A stretch of 64,000 nucleotides of DNA from Chlorobiota bacterium (GTDB lineage: Bacteria; Bacteroidota; Bacteroidia; Bacteroidales; F082). Below are positions 2,614-40,885 of the stretch, piece by piece. The notes under the pieces are model-generated. The model worked only from the letters and a program-made list of their open reading frames with translations, was not told where the DNA came from and searched no databases. The stretch spans positions 1 to 64,000 of the forward strand of contig JAUVKF010000002.1 in assembly GCA_030596395.1 (NCBI GenBank), written 5' to 3'. Every line of letters starts with the position of its first letter. The first letter of the stretch is position 1. Both the position numbers and the translations under genes were made by a program.

Positions 2614-3468
2614 TTATTGCCTCATATAAATGGTATAAACCTCTCCATCAATTTCAACAGTTGCAATACGATCGCATGCTCCATCGCCAAAATCCATGAT
2701 GGTTATGGGCCAGCCTTCAACAAGGATATTCAGTGTACCCGAAATAATCCATTTGCAGTTTAGTTCAACACGTAATGCCTTGGTGGTTGCCATTTCCCAG
2801 GTTTGCAGTACAGAAGTTGTTGATCCATCCATTTTTTGACTGGATGAGCCGTTAGCTATCCCGGTAATCAGGTAAACATCATCACCTATCTCAATAGTTT
2901 CCATGCCTTTAATCCATTCACGTGTACGGTTCGAATTCCAGGTAATTGTTCCGCCCTCATTTGCTTTATGGATTGTGCCTTCAACCTCAACTGTGTATTG
3001 TATATTCTGATTTTCGTTGAAGCCTGTGTTTGAAACAATCATTGATCCTTCTACTTTGTTCTCGTCTACGTAATAATTATCAAAGCCAATAGAAATCACA
3101 GTACCCGGTTCCCGGTACATGCCATTGAAAGTGACAAGGATCTTACCCTTCCGGTATCGTCCATCGTTACACAGGCAATTTGTATCGCCAAAATCAATGG
3201 TTAATTCATATGGATCGGTTCCAAAATCAAGGGTAATGTCAACACATTCGCTTAAATAATAACTTGTTGCTGAACCGGATTTAAAATTGTTTGAACCTGC
3301 TTCATATGCTTCATCAGCAATATTAGAAACATTTTTGAATAGATTTTCTGCAAGCGCATTGTCTTCAGAAAAGGAGGTGTCGTAGCGTTCTTTCTTTTTG
3401 TTACAGGAGGTAATGATGAAACCTGCAAGCACTAACGCCAATAATGCTAAAAAACTGTTTTGTCTCAT
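2614..3468 (-). CDS. Hypothetical lipoprotein
   Basis: A 284-residue protein with a lipoprotein signal peptide: hydrophobic residues 5-19, then lipobox ITSC with Cys22. After a short Lys-rich linker (NKKKERYDT) the mature part is rich in Thr, Asp and aromatic residues and looks all-beta. An example is the stretch DVTLDFG-like then ELTIDFGDTNCLCNDGRYRKG. I do not recognise a named domain. The alternating strand pattern and repeated DFG/DFGD motifs suggest a beta-sandwich on the outer membrane or periplasmic face. It is read alone on the minus strand; the next minus-strand gene upstream (5731-3659) is separated by its own terminator. Its function cannot be inferred from context. Confidence 0.75.
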   Translation of the reverse strand: MRQNSFLALLALVLAGFIITSCNKKKERYDTSFSEDNALAENLFKNVSNIADEAYEAGSNNFKSGSATSYYLSECVDITLDFGTDPYELTIDFGDTNCLCNDGRYRKGKILVTFNGMYREPGTVISIGFDNYYVDENKVEGSMIVSNTGFNENQNIQYTVEVEGTIHKANEGGTITWNSNRTREWIKGMETIEIGDDVYLITGIANGSSSQKMDGSTTSVLQTWEMATTKALRVELNCKWIISGTLNILVEGWPITIMDFGDGACDRIATVEIDGEVYTIYMRQ

Positions 3469-3590
3469 GATTTTTTGTTTTTGGTTTACAATTAAACATT
3501 TGATTGAAAATAGAATTGGCGTAAATGTTTTTCATCATGGTATATAAACCGGATAATGATGCAATTATTGCTTATTGCGACTCTGCATGA

Positions 3591-30756: not shown

Positions 30757-32268
30757 TTACGCTTTCCTCATAATTATTCTAAAGGTGCTTCCCTTGCCCG
30801 GCGTAGAACTTTTAACAAAAATCTTTCCTTTGTGATAATCCCGGATTATCCGTTTCGAAAGCGATAAGCCAAGGCCCCAGCCTCGCTTTTTGCTCGTATA
30901 ACCTGGGTTGAATATCGCTTTTTGCTCTGTTAGCGAAATACCTTTCCCAGTGTCGGTAATATCAATGATCAGGTTTTTTGATTCGTCCCTGGCCATGATT
31001 GTGATCGTTCCTTCACCGACCATGGCGTCAATGGCATTTTTACAGAGGTTTTCAATTACCCAGCTAAACAAAGCTTTATTAACAGGGATAAAAATCTCAA
31101 GGTTTTCGTCAATTTCTAAATTGTATTTTACCTTTTTAGGCGAGCGGGGTTTGAGGTATTCAACACTATCGTAAATTATCCGTACAACATCATTTTGTTC
31201 AAGTCTCGGCGTTGAGCCTATTTTTGAAAATCTTTCTGTAATAACTTCCAACCGGTTAATATCCTTCTCAATTTCTTCTGCGGCTTGGTGCGCATTACCC
31301 TCGCCCATTTTTAACAATTCCATCCAGGCCATTATCGAAGATAAAGGAGTTCCGATTTGATGTGCTGTTTCTTTTGCCATCCCGGCCCAAACCCTGTTTT
31401 GTTCGGCGTTTCGTGCATAACTGAATAACAAATATGCAACAGCAAGAAAAACAGCAATTATTAGTATCTGAGCCAGCGGAAAAAAACGCATTATAGTCAA
31501 TAATTCAGAATCCTGGTAAAATATATAACTTGTTCCCTGGTCGGCAAATGACACTTCTATTGGACGGTTTTCATCATCCATTTCTTCCAGTTTTCGGCTA
31601 ACATAGGTGGGGTCGCTCATCCTTATGTCGTTCAGGTTCCCGAATTGAATAATATTTTTCCTGGTACTATCAGTAATTATAACCGGAACGCTGGATGAAT
31701 TCAATGCCACTTCCGACATAAAAGAAGTGATATAATCGTTTAATACTTCTTTTAACTCTATAAAAAATCTTGAATCCTGGTAATAAAGGTAATTACTCTT
31801 TGAAGGAGAGTAAGGAACCTCAATAGGAGGGTATTTTGAAAACTCATCCAACAGGGCGCCACTGAGAAAAGTTACGCTATCGTTCGGAAAATCAAGATTT
31901 TTTTGGCTAATTATTTTCCCAGCATCGTTTGTGTATATTACCGGAATAGTAGTGTTATTATGAATAATGTCGAGGTAAAAAGTCAGGTCCGAATCGTCTT
32001 TATCGGATAATAATTGTTTATATACCTCGGCAAACAGTTCAACCCGTTTTCTTTCTTCTTCCTGTAATTGTTTAAAAAAGAACTCAGTGTATTTTACTAA
32101 ACTGGCTTTACGATGTACTGCCGCAGCCCACAATTGAACATTTTTTCGCTCTTGTTTGGCAAACTGATTAACCAAAAGATTGGTATAGAAAATAGAAGAG
32201 CCAATAATAATAAGCGCAAGAATGAAAAGTAAAATCTTCGAGCGTTTTTTCTGGGTATAAATATCCAA
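30757..32268 (-). CDS. Membrane sensor histidine kinase (orphan)
   Basis: 503 residues. TM1 is at about 13-33 and TM2 at about 267-288; they enclose a large periplasmic sensor domain of about 230 residues. The kinase core has the H-box MAKETAHQIGTPLSSIMAW (phospho-acceptor His303), N-box NLCKNAIDAM, G1 DITDTGKGI and G2 GWGLGLSLSKRI. No HAMP domain is obvious. Translation starts at TTG 32268; the upstream frame has a TGA and no ATG. No response regulator is adjacent. The gene is divergent from the ABC export cluster across a 270-base region containing a sigma-54-like module, so it may sense the stress that this cluster relieves, through an NtrC-type regulator encoded elsewhere. Confidence 0.9.
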   Translation of the reverse strand: MDIYTQKKRSKILLFILALIIIGSSIFYTNLLVNQFAKQERKNVQLWAAAVHRKASLVKYTEFFFKQLQEEERKRVELFAEVYKQLLSDKDDSDLTFYLDIIHNNTTIPVIYTNDAGKIISQKNLDFPNDSVTFLSGALLDEFSKYPPIEVPYSPSKSNYLYYQDSRFFIELKEVLNDYITSFMSEVALNSSSVPVIITDSTRKNIIQFGNLNDIRMSDPTYVSRKLEEMDDENRPIEVSFADQGTSYIFYQDSELLTIMRFFPLAQILIIAVFLAVAYLLFSYARNAEQNRVWAGMAKETAHQIGTPLSSIMAWMELLKMGEGNAHQAAEEIEKDINRLEVITERFSKIGSTPRLEQNDVVRIIYDSVEYLKPRSPKKVKYNLEIDENLEIFIPVNKALFSWVIENLCKNAIDAMVGEGTITIMARDESKNLIIDITDTGKGISLTEQKAIFNPGYTSKKRGWGLGLSLSKRIIRDYHKGKIFVKSSTPGKGSTFRIIMRKA

Positions 32269-32384
32269 TTTGCTAAATATTAACTGTCAAAAATACTAAC
32301 AAATAACAAAACAGAATATTGCTCCATTATTTAAGTGTATTCAATATTGTTGTTCAAAATAGTTCCTTGGTATAAGCAGTTGAA

Positions 32385-32487
32385 CGATTTCGCTCACCTT
32401 GTGTATGGTTCACGAACACTTTTGTAAATAGCAACTTCGGCAAACCACTCAAAACAAAACACTTACCGTGATTGGCACAATTACTGA
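32385..32487 (+). promoter_or_regulatory. Sigma-54-like promoter module 1, upstream of permease A1
   Basis: TGGCACAATTACTGA at 32473-32487 resembles the -24/-12 element (TGGCAC, then N5, then TTGC-like, here CTGA; GG-N10-GA). Upstream, CGATTTCGC (32385) and CGAACACTTTT (from 32413) recur at the same distances in module 2: GAACAC lies 59 bases before TGGCAC in both. GTTCACGAAC (32409-32418) is a small dyad. The upstream elements would suit an enhancer-binding regulator. The -12 GC being GA is a deviation from the standard consensus. Confidence 0.6.
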
Positions 32488-32538
32488 AATAGCTTAGTAT
32501 TAATTAAATTCAATAAACAAGAAGTAATTTCCGCTAGG

Positions 32539-33777
32539 ATGTTTGAAGTTGATAAGTGGCAGGAGATTTACAGCACCATTAAAAAAAACAAGCTAAGGAC
32601 TTTTCTTACCGGCTTTAGTGTTGCGTGGGGAATTTTTATGCTGATCATTTTACTGGGCTCGGGAACAGGTCTTGAGAATGGTGTTCGGGAACAATTCAAA
32701 GGAAGCGCAACCAATGGCATTTGGGTGAGTAGTGGTGTTACCAGTAAAGAGTTTAAAGGCCTGAATGCCGGACGAATGATCAGTTTTACCAATGAAGATT
32801 ATTCAGGCATCAAAACCAACGTTAAAGGACACGACCGCATCTCTTCCAGAATGTTTATGGGTAATATGCTGGTGTCTTACAATGATCAATACGGCTCATT
32901 TTATCTTTCGCCCTGCCATCCTGATTACGGAATTATTAAAGAAGTAAAAATGCTGAACGGCAGATTTCTAAATCAGATTGATATCAATAAAACCCGAAAA
33001 GTAGCCACAATTGGCGAGCAGGTGAAAAGCTCGCTTTTTAAAGGGAACGATACAATTGCAGTTGGCAAGTTTATCAAAATAAACAGCGTACTGTTTAAGG
33101 TAATCGGGGTTTTTCGCGATTTCAGCCGAAATGATGATGAAATGAAACGAATTTATATACCGATAACTACTGCTCAAAGGGTGTATTTTGGAAATAATGT
33201 TATTAACCAGATATCATTTACAACAGGTGATGCAAGCCCGGAACAAGCCAATACTATGGTAAGCAACACAAAAACACTTCTTGCCAAGCGTCATGCTTTT
33301 GATGAAACGGACGACCGGGCAATTTCAATTTGGAATAAAAGCGAGGAGGTTAGGAAGTTTCAGGCATTATTTGGTGGAATCAGGTTATTTATCTGGGTTA
33401 TTGGTATTGGAACCATCATTGCGGGCGTTGTTGGCGTTAGTAACATTATGATTATCGTTGTTAAAGAGCGGACCAAAGAAATTGGTATTCGCAAAGCGAT
33501 GGGTGCAACTCCGTCTTCGATAATATCGCTTATTCTGCAAGAGTCGGTTTTGATAACCGGATTTGCCGGGTATATTGGATTGATATTGGGTGTAGGCCTA
33601 CTTGAATTGGTTTCAAAATATATGCCTGAATCAGAATTTTTTAAAAACCCGGAAGCTGATTTTTCATTGGCATTAAGTGCTACAATTTTGTTGGTAATAG
33701 TGGGTGCAATTGCAGGTTTTGTCCCGGCCATGAAAGCAGCCAGGATAAAACCGGTTGAAGCCCTGAAAGATGAATAA
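32539..33777 (+). CDS. MacB-type ABC permease A1
   Basis: 412 residues: N-terminal helix in KNKLRTFLTGFSVAWGIFML (about 15-45), MacB periplasmic domain (about 50-270), FtsX domain with three helices (about 283-400) and IMIIVVKERTKEIGIRKAMG. The end ARIKPVEALKDE is standard. It is much closer to permease A2 (36048) than to its immediate neighbour B1, as shown by the shared SVAWGIFMLIILLGSGTGLE. It has its own sigma-54-like upstream region and no ATPase directly before it. It probably acts with the ATPase at 35305 and the adaptor at 38643. Confidence 0.9.
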   Translation: MFEVDKWQEIYSTIKKNKLRTFLTGFSVAWGIFMLIILLGSGTGLENGVREQFKGSATNGIWVSSGVTSKEFKGLNAGRMISFTNEDYSGIKTNVKGHDRISSRMFMGNMLVSYNDQYGSFYLSPCHPDYGIIKEVKMLNGRFLNQIDINKTRKVATIGEQVKSSLFKGNDTIAVGKFIKINSVLFKVIGVFRDFSRNDDEMKRIYIPITTAQRVYFGNNVINQISFTTGDASPEQANTMVSNTKTLLAKRHAFDETDDRAISIWNKSEEVRKFQALFGGIRLFIWVIGIGTIIAGVVGVSNIMIIVVKERTKEIGIRKAMGATPSSIISLILQESVLITGFAGYIGLILGVGLLELVSKYMPESEFFKNPEADFSLALSATILLVIVGAIAGFVPAMKAARIKPVEALKDE

Positions 33778-33801
33778 CCCCCCTAATCCCCCAAAAAGGG
33801 G
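33778..33801. repeat. C-rich/G-rich hairpin between permeases A1 and B1
   Basis: CCCCCC TAAT CCCCC AAAAA GGGG lies directly after the A1 stop; the CCCC and GGGG runs can pair. A decayed equivalent follows A2 (about 37282-37315, with CTCCC, CCTCTT, AAAAGGG and GAAGGG). The identical position in both A-B pairs supports their origin by duplication. Similar CCCCCTAATCCCCC strings are, from memory, common between Bacteroidota genes. Confidence 0.55.
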
Positions 33802-33826
33802 AAAGGAATAGAATAAAGAAATAAAC

Positions 33827-35089
33827 ATGTTTGATCTGGATCGCTGGCAGGAGATTTATCAGGTTTTAAGCAAAAACAAGCTTCGGACTTTTTTAACCGC
33901 ATTTGGTGTGTTCTGGGGAATTTTTATGCTGGTTGTGATGCTGGGGGCTGGAAACGGCTTGCAAAACGGGGTATCACAAAATCTGGGAGATATGGCAACC
34001 AACAGTGTATTTATCTGGGCACAACAAACGTCAATTTCATACAACGGATTTCCACGAGGAAGAAATTATAGTTTCAAAAACCAGGATGTGGAAATATTAA
34101 AACATGAAATTCCTGAAATGAAACACATTGCCCCCCGCTTGCGCATAGGTGGTTTCGACCAGGCTAATAATGTAATCAGGGGTAAAAAATCTGGAGGATT
34201 CTCAATAATGGGCGAATACCCGATTATCAATATTATCGATCCGGTTAATCTACAGCAAGGCCGATTTATTAACAAATTAGATATTATCGAAAAAAGAAAA
34301 ATTGTTGTTGTTGGCACCCGGGTGGTTGAAATATTATTTGAAAAAGATGAAGATCCCATTGATGAATACATTCAGATTCAGGGTGTATATTTTAAAATCG
34401 TGGGCGTTTTTAAATCCAAACGATCCGGAGAACAGGCCAATCGCGAAAACCAAAATGTTTATATGCCTTTTACAACCTTGCAAAAAACCTATAATCTTGG
34501 AAATAGTATTGGTTTTTTTGCAATTACTTCAAAAGACGACATACCCGTTTCGATTGTTGAAGACAAGGCAATCGAAGTATTAAAAAAAAGGCATTCGGTT
34601 GCCCCGGAAGATGAAAGAGCAGTTGGCCATTTTAACCTGGAAAAAGAGTTTGGGCAAATGATGGGATTGTTTGCCGGTATTCGCGGTCTGATATGGATAG
34701 TTGGAGCAGGAACCTTATTGGCAGGAGTAATTGGTGTAAGCAACATCATGCTTGTTGTGGTTAAGGAGCGAACGAAAGAATTTGGTATACAAAGGGCAAT
34801 CGGGGCTACACCCTATGCCGTAATGCGCCAGGTAATTACCGAGTCAATTGTTTTAACAACAACAGCCGGTTATTTTGGGCTTGTAGTTGGCGTTGGTTTA
34901 CTCGAACTGATCAACAATTTACTTGGAGGCCCCGGAGAGAATACGGAAATGTTTCTGCATCCGGGAATAAATTTTAATATAGGTTTGCTTGCGCTTACTA
35001 TTTTGATCATATCGGGTGCAATGGCAGGGATAATTCCTGCCAAAAGGGCCGTTTCGGTAAAACCAATTGACGCCCTCCGATTTGAATAA
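33827..35089 (+). CDS. MacB-type ABC permease B1
   Basis: 420 residues with the same architecture as A1. Its sequence class is B: it shares TAFGVFWGIFMLV, GDMATNSVFIWAQQT, the R..SG....RE/D periplasmic insert and FNLEKEFGQMMGLFAGIRGL with permease B2 (37329). The conserved FtsX segment is NIMLVVVKERTKEFGIQRAIG, and the end is AVSVKPIDALRFE. A and B classes probably form a heterodimeric permease. It is 49 bases downstream of A1. The C-terminal region has a short Gly/Glu-rich loop (GGPGENTEM) not present in A1. Confidence 0.9.
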   Translation: MFDLDRWQEIYQVLSKNKLRTFLTAFGVFWGIFMLVVMLGAGNGLQNGVSQNLGDMATNSVFIWAQQTSISYNGFPRGRNYSFKNQDVEILKHEIPEMKHIAPRLRIGGFDQANNVIRGKKSGGFSIMGEYPIINIIDPVNLQQGRFINKLDIIEKRKIVVVGTRVVEILFEKDEDPIDEYIQIQGVYFKIVGVFKSKRSGEQANRENQNVYMPFTTLQKTYNLGNSIGFFAITSKDDIPVSIVEDKAIEVLKKRHSVAPEDERAVGHFNLEKEFGQMMGLFAGIRGLIWIVGAGTLLAGVIGVSNIMLVVVKERTKEFGIQRAIGATPYAVMRQVITESIVLTTTAGYFGLVVGVGLLELINNLLGGPGENTEMFLHPGINFNIGLLALTILIISGAMAGIIPAKRAVSVKPIDALRFE

Positions 35090-35158
35090 TAAATTCTAAT
35101 AATCAGTTGATTGGTGAACAACCAGCTAACAAAAGCGCTTATCTTTAAACCAAATGGT

Positions 35159-35261
35159 CGTTTTCGCACACATATTGTCGACTTGGTGAACACTTTTATT
35201 AACACTACTTTTTATAAATCGCTGATAATAAATATTTTTCATAAACTGGCACAATTACTGA
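35159..35261 (+). promoter_or_regulatory. Sigma-54-like promoter module 2, upstream of the ABC ATPase
   Basis: TGGCACAATTACTGA at 35247-35261 is identical over 15 bases to module 1. CGTTTTCGCACAC (35159) and GAACACTTTT (35188-35197) align without gaps to module 1: the 29-base and 59-base spacings are the same, and about 31 of 47 bases match in the upstream block. ATG 35305 is 43 bases downstream of the box. The conserved elements stand out from the otherwise different flanking DNA. Confidence 0.6.
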
Positions 35262-35304
35262 TCAAGCTTTTTCGTTTGTAAATACTACTAAACAACAGCT
35301 ATTC

Positions 35305-36048
35305 ATGATCACACTTAAAAACATAAATAAAACTTACCGGATGGGCAAAACCGGTGGGCTTCATGTGCTAAAGGGGATCGACCTGAAAGTAGAAAGAGGG
35401 GAGCTGGTTTCGGTAATGGGTTCATCTGGATCGGGTAAATCTACACTTCTTAATATTATTGGATTGCTTGATGAATATGATATCGGTGAATATCAGCTCA
35501 ACGGAACCGTCATGGCCAATCTAAAAGAAAGCAAAGCTGCGTATTATCGCAACCAGATGCTGGGCTTTGTTTTTCAGTCATTCAACCTGATACCATTTAA
35601 AAATGCCATGGAAAATGTGGCCCTGCCTTTATACTATCAAAAAGTAAGCAGAAGAAAAAGAAATAAAATTGCCCTGCAGTATCTCGAAAGAATGGGTTTA
35701 AAAGAGTGGGCACACCACTTACCCAACGAACTTTCGGGGGGTGAGAAACAAAGACTTGCAATTGCCAGGGCGCTTATAGCGGAACCCAAGTTAATTTTAG
35801 CCGATGAGCCGACAGGAGCACTTGATTCAACAACATCTCAGGAAATCATGGATATCCTTAAAGAAATAAATAATAAGGGAACAACCATGATTATTGTTAC
35901 GCACGAAAATGATATCGCCGCACAAACCGACCGGATCATACATATTAAGGATGGAATTATTGAAAACGATGCCAATGGTCATGATAGTAAAAATCAGGTA
36001 TTAAAAACCCTTGAAGAAGAGGTAAACGGCGTAAACGGAATTGCATAA
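35305..36048 (+). CDS. ABC transporter ATP-binding protein (MacB/LolD type)
   Basis: 247 residues. Walker A GSSGSGKSTLLNIIG, Q-loop GFVFQSFNLIPFKNAMENV, signature LSGGEKQRLAIARAL, Walker B LILADEPTGALD and the H-loop IIVTHENDIAAQ are all intact. It energises a MacB-type exporter. It is the only ATPase in a cluster with four permeases and one adaptor. Its stop codon overlaps the start of permease A2 by one base (TAATG), indicating translational coupling. A C-terminal extension of about 20 residues after the ATPase fold is charged and probably disordered. Confidence 0.95.
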   Translation: MITLKNINKTYRMGKTGGLHVLKGIDLKVERGELVSVMGSSGSGKSTLLNIIGLLDEYDIGEYQLNGTVMANLKESKAAYYRNQMLGFVFQSFNLIPFKNAMENVALPLYYQKVSRRKRNKIALQYLERMGLKEWAHHLPNELSGGEKQRLAIARALIAEPKLILADEPTGALDSTTSQEIMDILKEINNKGTTMIIVTHENDIAAQTDRIIHIKDGIIENDANGHDSKNQVLKTLEEEVNGVNGIA

Positions 36049-37283
36049 TGTTTGATATCGATAAGTGGCAGGAAATTTTCAGCACGATCAGCAAAAATAA
36101 ATTGCGTACTGCTTTAACAGGCTTCAGTGTGGCCTGGGGAATTTTTATGCTTATTATTCTTTTGGGTTCGGGAACAGGCCTTGAAAACGGGGTAGAAGAA
36201 CAATTTGCCGACGACGCAACCAACAGCCTGTGGATTTATGCACGTCAAACCACAAAAGCATATCGGGGTTATAATTCAGGACGTCAAATCAGGTTCACTA
36301 ACGAAGATTACGACCGCATTAAGCATTCGATAGAACAAGCAGATCATATTACCGGCAGGTTTTATATCAGCAGCAGTAACACAACAAATTATAAAAATAA
36401 TTTTGGAACCTATGAAATAAGGTCGGTTCACCCCGGACACCAATATTTAGAAAACACCATCATCACGGAAGGCCGTTATATTAACGAGTTGGATTTGGAT
36501 CAATACAGCAAAGTTGCTGTAATTGGCAACCTGATTAAACAAGACCTGTTTAAGAATGGAGAAAACCCAATTGGTGAATACATCAAGGTAGGTAACATTC
36601 CTTTTAAAGTAGTGGGTGTATTTACTGATAAAGGTGGTGAAGGTGAAATGCGAAAAATTTATTTACCGATAACAACTGCGCAAAGGGTGTTTAATGGCGC
36701 CAACCGAATACATCAGTTGATGTTTACTATGGGAGATGCTACTATCGACGAAAGCAAACAAATTGAAGAACAGATTCAGGCAGAATTTGCACAGGCCCAT
36801 CATTTTGATCCAGAGGATCAGCGGGCAATTGGTATCAACAACAGCCTTGAAGACTATACCAGGGTGCAAAACCTTTTTCTTGGTATCAGGATATTCATAT
36901 GGATTGTTGGAATAGGAACCATAATAGCAGGAATTGTTGGTGTTGGCAATATTATGATGATTGTGGTAAAAGAAAGAACGAAAGAAATCGGGGTTAGAAA
37001 AGCATTGGGCGCCACTCCGCGTTCAATAATCGGCCTGATTTTGTTAGAGTCAATTGTAATAACCAGCCTGGCAGGGTATATTGGCCTGGTAATGGGTGTA
37101 GGCTTGCTTGAGTTAGTGAGGGCCAATATGCCACCCAGCGATTTTTTTATGAATCCTGAAGCTAATATATCGATTGCGCTTACGGCTGTTGCGTTGTTGG
37201 TTTTTTCAGGCACACTGGCCGGATTTATACCTGCCAGAAAGGCTGCGGCCATTAAACCAATTGAAGCATTAAGAGATGAATAA
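36048..37283 (+). CDS. MacB-type ABC permease A2
   Basis: 411 residues, class A. It is the paralogue of A1, with long common stretches (SVAWGIFMLIILLGSGTGLE, YLPITTAQRVFN/YIPITTAQRVYF, NIMMIVVKERTKEIGVRKAL). The periplasmic domain differs more than the membrane helices, as expected if it contacts the substrate or adaptor. The start overlaps the ATPase stop by one base. It ends AAIKPIEALRDE. Confidence 0.92.
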   Translation: MFDIDKWQEIFSTISKNKLRTALTGFSVAWGIFMLIILLGSGTGLENGVEEQFADDATNSLWIYARQTTKAYRGYNSGRQIRFTNEDYDRIKHSIEQADHITGRFYISSSNTTNYKNNFGTYEIRSVHPGHQYLENTIITEGRYINELDLDQYSKVAVIGNLIKQDLFKNGENPIGEYIKVGNIPFKVVGVFTDKGGEGEMRKIYLPITTAQRVFNGANRIHQLMFTMGDATIDESKQIEEQIQAEFAQAHHFDPEDQRAIGINNSLEDYTRVQNLFLGIRIFIWIVGIGTIIAGIVGVGNIMMIVVKERTKEIGVRKALGATPRSIIGLILLESIVITSLAGYIGLVMGVGLLELVRANMPPSDFFMNPEANISIALTAVALLVFSGTLAGFIPARKAAAIKPIEALRDE

Positions 37284-37328
37284 CTCCCTTATCCTCTTAA
37301 AAGGGTGAAGGGAAAGAATAAAGAAAAA

Positions 37329-38597
37329 ATGAACGTTTTTGATCTGGATAACTGGCAGGAAGTTTTCAACGCCTTAAAAAAGAACAAGGTTCGCACCTTC
37401 TTTACTGCTTTTGGCGTTTTCTGGGGGATATTTATGCTGGTTTTGATGCTGGGCTCAGGAAATGGTTTAAAAAATGCAGCTTATAATGGTTGGGGCGACT
37501 TTGCCACAAACAGTTTTTTTATGTGGACCCAGCGCACCACTATGCCATATAAAGGTTTTAAAAGAGGGCGTTCATTTAATTTCAATAATAAAGATACCGA
37601 AGCCATTCGTGAAAAAATACCAGAGGTTAAAACACTTGCGCCACGTTTGCAGGCCGGAGGATATCGGGGAGCAAGCAATGTTGTAAGGGGCAAGGAAACA
37701 GGTGCATTTAATATATATGGAGATTATCCCGAATTTATGGATATTGATCCTGTTACTATTACCCAGGGCCGGTTCATCAACCATAATGATATTAATGATA
37801 TGCGAAAAGTAGCTATTATTGGAAATTCAGTTGTTGATGCATTGTTTAATAAAGATGAAGACCCTATTGGGGATTATATCAAAATCCAGGGTGTTTATTT
37901 TAACGTGGTTGGAACATTTAAATCTAAAAAATCAGGAGGCGAAGCAGATCGTGACGGGAATAGTATTTTCCTGCCGTTTTCAACAATGCAAAAAACTTAC
38001 AATTACGGCGATGCCGTTTTCTGGTATGCCATTACTTCTCAGGAAAATATTCCGGCCTCAGTTACCGAGGAAAAAGTAGTAACACTGATGAAGCAATCCC
38101 ATAAAGTACACCCTGATGACGACCAGGCCATTGGCCATTTTAACGTTGAAACAGAGTTCAAAAAAATGGAAGGCTTGTTTACAGGAATTGACGGGTTGAT
38201 CTGGGTGGTTGGAATAGGAACTTTGCTTGCCGGAATTATTGGGGTTTCAAATATAATGCTGATCATTATAAAAGAAAGGACCAACGAAATTGGTGTAAAA
38301 CGCGCACTCGGTGCCACTCCATTAAATATTATTTCACAGGTAATCCTTGAATCGGTGTTTTTAACAACGCTGGCTGGTTACTTCGGATTGGTTTTGGGTG
38401 TAGGTGTACTCGGGATTCTTGACAATGCCATGCAAAATATGGAAGCAGACAGCCAGTTTTTTCTGCATCCGGAAATCAATTTCTCCGTAGGAATTTTAGC
38501 CTTGATAATCCTTGTTTTTTCCGGAATATTAGCCGGATTGATACCGGCCAAAAGGGCTGTAAGCATAAGACCTGTTGATGCACTAAGAGATGAATAA
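37329..38597 (+). CDS. MacB-type ABC permease B2
   Basis: 422 residues from the ATG at 37329 (MNVFDLDNWQEV). A GTG at 37305 would add eight Lys-rich residues with no counterpart in the paralogues, so the ATG is preferred. It is the paralogue of B1 (TAFGVFWGIFMLV, GDFATNSFFMWTQRT, FNVETEFKKMEGLFTGIDGL, NIMLIIIKERTNEIGVKRAL). It lies downstream of A2 after the decayed C/G-rich spacer. It ends AVSIRPVDALRDE and is followed after 45 bases by the membrane-fusion protein. Confidence 0.92.
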   Translation: MNVFDLDNWQEVFNALKKNKVRTFFTAFGVFWGIFMLVLMLGSGNGLKNAAYNGWGDFATNSFFMWTQRTTMPYKGFKRGRSFNFNNKDTEAIREKIPEVKTLAPRLQAGGYRGASNVVRGKETGAFNIYGDYPEFMDIDPVTITQGRFINHNDINDMRKVAIIGNSVVDALFNKDEDPIGDYIKIQGVYFNVVGTFKSKKSGGEADRDGNSIFLPFSTMQKTYNYGDAVFWYAITSQENIPASVTEEKVVTLMKQSHKVHPDDDQAIGHFNVETEFKKMEGLFTGIDGLIWVVGIGTLLAGIIGVSNIMLIIIKERTNEIGVKRALGATPLNIISQVILESVFLTTLAGYFGLVLGVGVLGILDNAMQNMEADSQFFLHPEINFSVGILALIILVFSGILAGLIPAKRAVSIRPVDALRDE

Positions 38598-38642: not shown

Positions 38643-39722
38643 ATGAAAACATTTTTTAAAGTTCTGGGAATTGTCGTGATACTAGGCATTTTTGGATATA
38701 CCCTGTATTTTTTATGGGACAAATCGAAAGAAAAACCTGTGGTTTTTGAAACAGAAACACCTTTTTATTCAGACGTGATCAAGAAAACTGTGGCCACAGG
38801 CTCGGTAGTACCACGATTTGAAATAGAGATTAAACCTGTGGTTTCAGGGATTGTGGACGAACTCTTTGTTGAGGAAGGTGATAAAATTAAAAAGGGGGAT
38901 TTGATTGCAAAGATTCGAATCATCCCCAACATGATCAACTTAAACAATGCAAAAGCCAGGATTGATCGCGCCAGGATCAACCTGAAAGATGCAAAACGCA
39001 ATTATGACCGCCAGTTTGGTTTGCTGGAAAAAGGCGTAATAGCAAAAGCTGATTTTGAATCGTATGAGGTGGCTTATCAAAATGCCAGGGAAGAACTTGA
39101 AACGGCGGAGGAAACACGGCAACTTATTCAGGAGGGGCAGCTAAAAAAATCAGGAACACCAACAAATACCCTCGTTCGTTCAACAATTGATGGTATGGTG
39201 CTTTCTGTTCCGGTTGAAGTTGGGAACCAGGTAATTGAAGCTAATAATTTTAATGCCGGAACTACAATTGCCGCTGTTGCCGATATGAATGATATGATTT
39301 TTAAAGGAAAAATAGACGAAACAGAGGTTGGGAAAATCCATGAAAAAATGAATTTAATTCTCTCAATTGGCGCCATTGATGATTTAAAATTTCAAGCCAA
39401 ACTGACTAAAATTGCCCCGAAAGGAGTAGAAGAAAACGGAGCCATCCAGTTTGAAATAGAAGCTAACGTAAAATTACTTGACGAACAGTTCATCAGGGCC
39501 GGTTACAGTGCTAATGCCGACATTGTCCTTGAAAGGGCCGATAGTGTTATGGTGATTTCCGAAAGCCTGTTAAAGTTTGACGATGACACCACCTATGTTG
39601 AGATAGAAACCGGAGAGCAACAATTTGAAAAAAGGGTTATTGAAACCGGTCTGTCCGATGGCATCAATATTCAGGTTCTGTCAGGACTAAACGAAGAAGA
39701 TAAAATTAAGAAAGCATCATAG
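38643..39722 (+). CDS. Membrane-fusion protein (HlyD/RND-type periplasmic adaptor, MacA-like)
   Basis: 359 residues. One N-terminal membrane helix is at about 5-25 (VLGIVVILGIFGYTLYFLW). The barrel-lipoyl-hairpin order follows: VVSGIVDELFVEEGDKIKKG (lipoyl half), a long coiled-coil hairpin of about 70 residues (NNAKARIDRARINLKDAKRN), LVRSTIDGMVLSVPVEVGNQ (second lipoyl half), a beta-barrel and the membrane-proximal domain. It connects the ABC permeases to an outer-membrane channel. No TolC-like gene is present in the window. A terminator follows at 39758. Confidence 0.92.
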   Translation: MKTFFKVLGIVVILGIFGYTLYFLWDKSKEKPVVFETETPFYSDVIKKTVATGSVVPRFEIEIKPVVSGIVDELFVEEGDKIKKGDLIAKIRIIPNMINLNNAKARIDRARINLKDAKRNYDRQFGLLEKGVIAKADFESYEVAYQNAREELETAEETRQLIQEGQLKKSGTPTNTLVRSTIDGMVLSVPVEVGNQVIEANNFNAGTTIAAVADMNDMIFKGKIDETEVGKIHEKMNLILSIGAIDDLKFQAKLTKIAPKGVEENGAIQFEIEANVKLLDEQFIRAGYSANADIVLERADSVMVISESLLKFDDDTTYVEIETGEQQFEKRVIETGLSDGINIQVLSGLNEEDKIKKAS

Positions 39723-39850: not shown

Positions 39851-40885
39851 ATGAAAATAACCACTACCCTAATTATCATTGCTATTTTTACAAAAGCAAT
39901 TATTGCCCAGGAAAAGGCTATTGTTTCTGAGAACGACTCAATCTATTCATTTGTCGATCAGCCTCCCGAATTCCTTGGAGGAATTTCAGAAATAGGAAAT
40001 TATCTAAGTCTCTCTCTGTCCTATCCTGCCCAGGCTTTAAAAGACAGTATTGAAGGCAAGGTTTACGTTGGGTTTGTTGTTGAAATAGATGGTAGTGTGT
40101 CAGAAGTAAAACTATTAAGAGGTATTGGTGGTGGGTGCGATGAAGAAGCGGTCCGTGTAGTGGGGGAAATGCCCAAATGGAATCCTGGTAAGTTAAAAGG
40201 GGCCCCTGTAAGGGTTTCAAAAACATTACCAATTAATTTTAGCCTTGCTACCCCAGCACAAAGCCAAACCAAAATATATCGTGAGGCAGATACACTTCCT
40301 GAATTTGTAGGGGGTCAGGTCGGGCTGAACAAGTACTTAGTTGACAATATTACAGGTCACAAAAAAGTGTCTGATACGATAAATGAGCTTGAGGTTAAGG
40401 TCTATTTTGTTGTAGAAACTGATGGAAGCCTGTCAAGTATTATGGTTGTTGATAGTATTGGATATGGTCTGGATAAAAAGGCAATTGACATTGTAAAAAA
40501 CATGCCAAAATGGAAACCGGGAAAAATAGGTAACACAAAAGTTCGTGTATTACTTTATTTGCTTATTGATTTTGCTGTTTATGGTGTTGTTGATACCATG
40601 CCTGAATTTTCGGGAGGGATAAATAACCTGATGTATTATCTGGCAACTAATATAAATTATCCTGTATATGCTTACAATAATGGTATTCAGGGCAGGGTGT
40701 TTATAAACTTCTTTGTCGAGGGAGATGGAACAGTTTCGAACGTGACAGTTAAAAGAGGGGTTGGCGGTGGGTGTGATGAAGAAGCCATGCGTGTTGTAAA
40801 AAACATGCCAAAATGGAAAGCGGGCATTCATAGGGGTAAACCGGTTAGGGTTTCATATAATTTGCCTGTTAATTTTACATTATAA
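39851..40885 (+). CDS. Exported protein with three TonB C-terminal domains and no membrane anchor
   Basis: 344 residues. After a signal peptide (about 1-19, ITTTLIIIAIFTKAIIAQ) there are three consecutive TonB_C-like domains, at about 33-133, 146-235 and 243-344. Each begins with the lead P(E/D)F.GG (QPPEFLGGI, LPEFVGGQ, MPEFSGGI) and carries YPA.A....G.V...F.VE.DG and MPKW.PGK/AG.....VRVS. Domains 1 and 3 are nearly complete and resemble each other strongly (LRGIGGGCDEEAVRVV and KRGVGGGCDEEAMRVV). Domain 2 is shorter and lacks the YP motif. Classical TonB has one such domain after a Pro-rich spanner and an N-terminal helix; here both are missing, so energy coupling through ExbB/D is unlikely. 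A binding role at TonB boxes or at peptidoglycan is only a guess. Confidence 0.85.
   Translation: MKITTTLIIIAIFTKAIIAQEKAIVSENDSIYSFVDQPPEFLGGISEIGNYLSLSLSYPAQALKDSIEGKVYVGFVVEIDGSVSEVKLLRGIGGGCDEEAVRVVGEMPKWNPGKLKGAPVRVSKTLPINFSLATPAQSQTKIYREADTLPEFVGGQVGLNKYLVDNITGHKKVSDTINELEVKVYFVVETDGSLSSIMVVDSIGYGLDKKAIDIVKNMPKWKPGKIGNTKVRVLLYLLIDFAVYGVVDTMPEFSGGINNLMYYLATNINYPVYAYNNGIQGRVFINFFVEGDGTVSNVTVKRGVGGGCDEEAMRVVKNMPKWKAGIHRGKPVRVSYNLPVNFTL

Follow-up and report, generated by a model that had tools for sequence, protein, structure and literature searches.

The exporter locus and its two promoter modules

We analysed a window of 64,000 nucleotides from contig JAUVKF010000002.1 of a Chlorobiota bacterium (assembly GCA_030596395.1; our genome G000, 3.42 Mb and 94% complete), in which the genes of a predicted exporter are preceded at two places by the same arrangement of promoter-like elements, here called P1 and P2. 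On the forward strand lie, in this order, permease A1 (32539..33777), permease A2 (33827..35089), an ATP-binding cassette (ABC) ATPase (35305..36048), permease B1 (36048..37283), permease B2 (37305..38597) and a periplasmic adaptor of the HlyD/RND_mfp type (38643..39722), all four permeases having MacB_PCD and FtsX domains. Since these domains are present the exporter resembles the MacB class, and judged by them the cluster is a MacB-like exporter, with the ATPase and the permeases encoded by separate genes and with scores (114.8 for A1, 238.1 for the ATPase) under the cut-off of 966 of the curated MacB model. Divergent from it, on the reverse strand, is a gene for an orphan histidine kinase (30757..32268), which we judged not to be cognate. 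When 30 kinase loci were compared, the exporter was found beside the kinase in 20, and A1 and A2 stand between kinase and ATPase only in the source genome and in G005, the ATPase adjoining the kinase in the other 18; in further relatives the exporter is located away from the kinase. Immediately downstream of the adaptor gene, at 39851-40885, a 344-residue protein with three TonB_C stretches is encoded.

P1, before A1, and P2, before the ATPase, have TGGCACAATTACTGA in common (at 32473 and 35247), preceded in both copies at 59 bp by GAACACTTTT (at 32414 and 35188) and, another 29 bp before that, by an upstream block CG-TTTCGC-CAC, which reads CGATTTCGCTCAC from 32385 and CGTTTTCGCACAC from 35159, while the flanking DNA and the spacers are unlike. 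The arrangement had been described in the original prediction and was confirmed. The pair of upstream blocks is real, but its members had to be redrawn as pieces of the dyads TGNNCG-N4-CGNNCA and TGT-N8-[CT]GAACA, which stand about 22 bp from each other. In P1, the first upstream activating sequence (UAS1) is the 16-bp dyad TGAACGATTTCGCTCA (TGNNCG-N4-CGNNCA; 32381..32396), UAS2 is a half-dyad TGT-N8-CGAACA about 22 bp downstream of it (32402..32418), and the -24/-12-like element TGGCACAATTACTGAA occupies 32473..32488, with a predicted start near 32498. The counterparts in P2 are TGGTCGTTTTCGCACA (35155..35170), TGTCGACTTGGTGAACA (35176..35192) and TGGCACAATTACTGAT (35247..35262), with a predicted start near 35272, all on the forward strand.

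Taken singly, these elements are weak evidence, since the window contains 117 copies of TGGCAC-N6-TGC when two mismatches are allowed, where 116 would be expected, and GAACACTTTT, with one mismatch allowed, is not enriched (6 copies, 9.2 expected). The shared 15-mer has exactly two copies in the window, and of the 42 genome-wide matches to TGGCACNNNNNNTGA (TGGCAC-N6-TGA) the reading TGGCACAATTACTGA is limited to P1 and P2; given such counts, the -24/-12 pattern alone was rejected as a criterion. The ordered and spaced combination, on the other hand, is far beyond chance. A leave-genus-out weight matrix, made from 17 orthologous promoters with none from the source genus, ranks the two places first and second in the window with scores of 79.0 and 58.7. 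The third-best place scores -21.9, and random sequence of 5.1 Mb reached no more than -4.7. A profile built from exporter promoters only (R1) gives P2 75.2 and P1 63.5 bits in the source genome, followed by C36:6654 (contig and position; 26.6), C60:32013 (20.3), C10:50285 (20.2) and C86:2908 (18.1 bits), so that the module does not occur at random genome-wide, a possibility raised with the original prediction. P1 and P2 belonged to the training set of R1, but the leave-genus-out matrix likewise puts them at the top of the window.

Conservation of the module upstream of related exporters

Counting as a module a dyad TGNNCG-N4-CGNNCA with at most one mismatch together with a -24/-12-like promoter element YGGCAY-N7-G, we found it upstream of 34 of 45 exporter genes, P1 being among the positive regions. 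The 45 regions were hand-picked, 40 coming from the same family and 5 from other families, with G000 and G005 contributing two each. One hundred dinucleotide shuffles of all 45 regions gave a mean of 0.02 modules and a maximum of 1, and the reverse strand of the 45 gave none. All positives are of the same family (34/40), and in many of the upstream regions a second half-dyad ending in CGAACA follows about 22 bp on. The distance from dyad to TGG is mostly 91-95 bp, with 83, 103 or 113-115 bp in five regions; these variants are shifted by about one or two turns of the helix, which would fit a protein that has to keep to one face of the DNA. The exporter-promoter alignment comprises 25 regions with a dyad spacing of 91-93, G032, G017 and G052 of that spacing being omitted.

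As a control against a trivial link of the module with the permease family, we looked at four standalone pairs of A1/A2-like permeases with no ATPase close by (in G019, G032, G036 and G046), and no module was found within 400 bases upstream of them. These standalone pairs (L067, L069, L064 and L074) span two genera.

Promoter type

The source genome carries an intact rpoN open reading frame (Sigma54_DBD, 1.5e-51) with the RpoN box ARRTVAKYRE, and the lack of this gene, which the original prediction had named as a point that would speak against it, does not apply. Both P1 and P2 have the -24 GG, within TGGCAC, and the distance from GG to the -12 G is 10 nt in both, as a sigma-54 promoter needs. 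Among the aligned elements GGCA, the 10-nt spacing and the -12 G are found in 38 of 38, but the search pattern demanded them, and the free positions are thus more informative: the base before the -12 G is T in 34 of the 38, and the base after it is A in 23, C in 11, T in 3 and G in 1 (the set omits G029 and G041). No exact TAnnTTTG box, the housekeeping type, occurs on the exporter strand of P1 or P2, and such a box is missing from that strand in 17 of the 20 kinase/exporter regions, P1 included, the exceptions being G029, G041 and G039. The sigma-54 reading is supported by these sequence features, as is the proposal that an activator-site pair and a -24/-12-type promoter stand before both putative transcription units, an arrangement conserved across the family.

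A candidate regulator encoded elsewhere in the genome

A PF00158 search of the source genome returned six places, three of them strong, which we call EBP_C20, EBP_C84 and EBP_C10 (enhancer-binding protein, EBP, followed by its contig). EBP_C20 has a receiver and an AAA+ domain and gave no match to the Fis helix-turn-helix (HTH); EBP_C84 has AAA+ and HTH and gave no receiver match; in EBP_C10 the receiver, the Sigma54_activat (AAA+) domain and the Fis HTH are all present. The EBP_C10 gene adjoins a kinase gene of its own and is divergent from another ABC ATPase. The search for an NtrC-family regulator with a co-occurring kinase, proposed with the original prediction, leads to EBP_C10 and the kinase on contig C10 and not to the kinase of the window. 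EBP_C10, an NtrC-type response regulator, is the best candidate.

A dyad and a promoter element lie upstream of EBP_C10 orthologues in all 30 loci, the dyad being exact in 24 and having one mismatch in 6. Except at L125, there are two dyads 22 bp apart, typically TGTTCAC-N3-TGTACA and TGGACGATTTCGAACA, and the nearer dyad stands 79-80 bp before TGGCAY-N7-G (29/30 loci). In its layout this promoter is, by sequence comparison, the exporter arrangement shifted by about one turn. R1, built from exporter promoters only, recovers the EBP_C10 promoter at rank 5 in the source genome (the C10 site above, E 0.0017) and the regulator promoter in at least 17 relatives. When dyad pairs of exporters and regulators were aligned together (39 of 49 pairs), MAFFT paired UAS1 of the exporters with the second dyad of the regulators, and no model was built from this alignment. 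On the same contig C10 of the source genome, at locus L002, a long dyad TGTCTGGAATGTTCCGGACA begins at about 2770, shortly before the start of the ABC ATPase of that contig at 2805; it is unlike the EBP dyads and is possibly another operator.

Genomes lacking the regulator

Of the family genomes, 34 have both the exporter and an EBP_C10 orthologue, 3 the exporter only (G011, G029 and G041), 3 the regulator only and 8 neither (Fisher p 5.8e-5, not corrected for kinship). In this count, compiled by hand, G027 was taken as exporter-positive (its ATPase is beside the kinase, where the contig ends), G014 as exporter-negative, and likewise G018 and G043, whose permeases are 38-39% identical; EBP matches of 44-50% were not regarded as orthologous.

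Two genomes of one genus, G029 and G041 (93% and 86% complete), gave no EBP_C10 match at E <= 1e-90. Both retain the exporter, without the module, and a TAnnTTTG box is found 62 and 64 bp before the ATPase, respectively. The EBP_C84 orthologue is retained in both (80-81% identity) and the EBP_C20 orthologue in G041 (73%); since the module is gone while these are kept, the loss points to EBP_C10 more than to the others. In G041 the match to permease B1 (L132, contig C44, about 3366-3534) is split in two, apparently out of frame, as if the exporter were decaying.

Further targets and wider distribution

The C36 and C60 sites precede genes for two paralogous proteins, 116 and 118 residues long, which start like signal peptides and resemble TonB_C weakly, below the threshold. 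Of 29 such small-protein genes in 21 genomes (the tally includes L226), 16 have dyad and element, 3 the element only and 10 neither. Neither was found at the third paralogue of the source genome (C60:24258), nor at the four genes that come from G029, G041, G015 and G074, where EBP_C10 had no match. The C86 site precedes a gene for a LolA-like protein, where the dyads look good and the -24 does not, which makes this target doubtful. At near-matches on C18 and C70 of the source genome no query protein matched.

Outside the family, R1 was applied to a wider set of 80 ATPase loci from named records and matched every one of the seven Marinifilum exporter loci in it. Their dyads include TGTACGTATTCGTACA, and TGGCACGAGTATTGA is present in six of the seven. 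An EBP_C10 homologue was found at E <= 1e-80 in 6 of the 7 named genomes searched; five Marinifilum genomes have one of 58-59% identity besides other paralogues, and in 5/5 a dyad precedes the homologue's own gene. The Bacteroides and Phocaeicola loci in the same set of 80 (L266, L271, L275 and L311) gave no R1 match.

Proposed mechanism and alternative explanations

Taken together, our data suggest that the MacB-like exporter has two promoters of the sigma-54 type, P1 and P2, activated in trans by EBP_C10, a reading to which we give a probability of roughly 0.8. The kinase adjacent to EBP_C10 on contig C10 would activate it by phosphorylation, and the phosphorylated regulator would bind both dyads, about 22 bp apart and roughly 80-120 bp before the predicted start, and contact the RpoN-polymerase through DNA looping. 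P1 and P2, whose putative operons would be A1-A2 and ATPase-B1-B2-adaptor, would be driven together, and further targets of EBP_C10 would be the promoter at its own locus and two or more small secreted-protein genes. The operon structure, the binding and the dependence on RpoN are inferred.

Several observations weigh against this reading. The strict module was missed in 6 of the 40 family regions (G029, G041, G018, G036, G046 and G045; of these, G036, G046 and G045 have off-pattern versions) and was found in 0 of 5 regions of other families, where G052 has only a -24-like element. UAS2 itself is imperfect; several members of genera g3, g8 and g13 have instead of it an upstream dyad of the type TGTTCG-N4-CGAATA. 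The -12 of P1 and P2 reads CTGA (GA) and not the canonical TTGC (GC), though promoters that are validated and deviate from the consensus, E. coli dcuD, xapBp3 and glpQp, are among those reported in PMC12316311. EBP_C10 also differs from canonical NtrC-type EBPs in its sigma-54 contact loop, which is GAFTDA instead of GAFTGA in 35 of 35 homologues; GAFTDA stands in the list of loop variants expected to retain activity in PMC4641369, and the account in PMC10714721, which concerns another protein, leaves activity with it undecided. As for the distribution, G011 (83% complete) has the module and no EBP_C10 match, and G012 and G016 have the regulator and no exporter match, as does G014, where the module is nevertheless found and the kinase lies at a contig end; there is no clear EBP_C20 orthologue in G029 either. 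R1 also matches sites of relatives at neither exporter nor regulator, for instance L175 (G012:C106) and L176 (G025:C31), which precede genes unrelated to the exporter; such sites may belong to paralogous EBPs or to a wider regulon. Finally, in the wider ATPase set R1 matches only 22 of 80 loci (E up to 0.1), and 8 or more of the matching loci lie on contigs from genomes that the analysis had already covered.

It is conceivable, if unlikely, that these are sigma-54 promoters served by another activator, EBP_C20, EBP_C84 or one absent from the assembly, the likeness of the dyads being then a preference of the EBP subfamily. The 94% completeness of the source genome, the several EBPs in relatives and the module in G011 would fit this, but EBP_C20 is without a Fis HTH match, EBP_C84 (G029 and G041) and EBP_C20 (G041) were kept despite the loss of the module, and it is before EBP_C10 that dyads of this kind stand in pairs, at 29 of 30 loci. 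Still less probable is the link made in the original prediction, in which the neighbouring kinase (30757-32268) would drive the exporter via an NtrC partner. Kinase and exporter are divergently oriented in 20 of the 30 loci compared, but in 20 of 20 kinase/exporter regions a TAnnTTTG box of the kinase gene stands 26-41 bp before the kinase start (TATTTTTG at 32288..32295 of the reverse strand in the window), and in 20 of 20 kinase neighbourhoods the three EBPs are absent. A full-length kinase orthologue is present in 47 of 48 family genomes, the exception being G016, and these include G008, G010 and G015 (92-98% complete), in which the exporter permease and an EBP_C10 orthologue were not found; EBP_C10, moreover, is adjoined by its own kinase. 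With its own promoter box, its independent occurrence and no EBP neighbour, the window kinase was rejected as partner, and this part of the original prediction is unsupported.

The likeness of P1 and P2 could also be a residue of a duplication of the exporter segment P1-A1-A2 and have nothing to do with function, and the position of A1/A2 between kinase and ATPase, seen only in G000 and G005 among the kinase loci compared, would be in line with this. However, A1 and B1 are only 55% identical, the flanks and spacers of P1 and P2 differ, and the same module is found in relatives with a single copy, so that we consider a mere duplication residue the most improbable of these explanations.

Relation to known systems

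In regards to what has been reported, a 2025 genome survey (PMC12316311) predicted sigma-54 control for COG0577 (FtsX-like) ABC permeases of the antimicrobial-peptide type in Bacteroidia, which agrees with the exporter described here in sigma factor, permease type and bacterial class, both results being computational. Passages of that survey on these exporters give an enrichment by class and name no operator or activator for them; compared with these passages, the present analysis adds the dyad pair, a candidate regulator, a small regulon and two genomes without regulator and module. EBP_C10 shares the receiver, AAA+ and Fis HTH domains with NtrC-family EBPs, and AtoC, ZraR and PEP-CTERM models cover most of its length. 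Its NCBIfam scores are below the curated cut-offs (PEP_resp_reg 396.2 against 502.6, AtoC 345 against 714, ZraR 312 against 760), and it is thus none of these named proteins; no equivalog score was above its cut-off among the matches listed. Envelope stress systems of the ZraSR type combine an NtrC-type pair, sigma-54 and a small secreted protein in the regulon, whereas the main targets here would be MacB-like exporters. In the open-licence literature on Bacteroidota sigma-54 regulons, EBPs and envelope systems we found no published description of this regulon, and that literature yielded little on sigma-54 activators in Bacteroidota.

Considered as a whole, the findings probably describe, though with less certainty than the reading of P1 and P2 itself, a two-component sigma-54 regulon without a name as yet, present in one Bacteroidota family and in Marinifilum. 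In it, an NtrC-type regulator acting on tandem 16-bp dyads 22 bp apart would control two exporters of the MacB-like kind and small secreted proteins resembling TonB_C, possibly also a LolA-like protein, and genomes that lost the regulator would have turned the exporter promoter into one of the housekeeping type. Sequence allows the operator, the promoter, a candidate regulator with its partner kinase, and a small regulon to be named, and cultured relatives (Marinifilum) exist. G029 and G041, without the regulator, would represent a natural experiment on promoter replacement.

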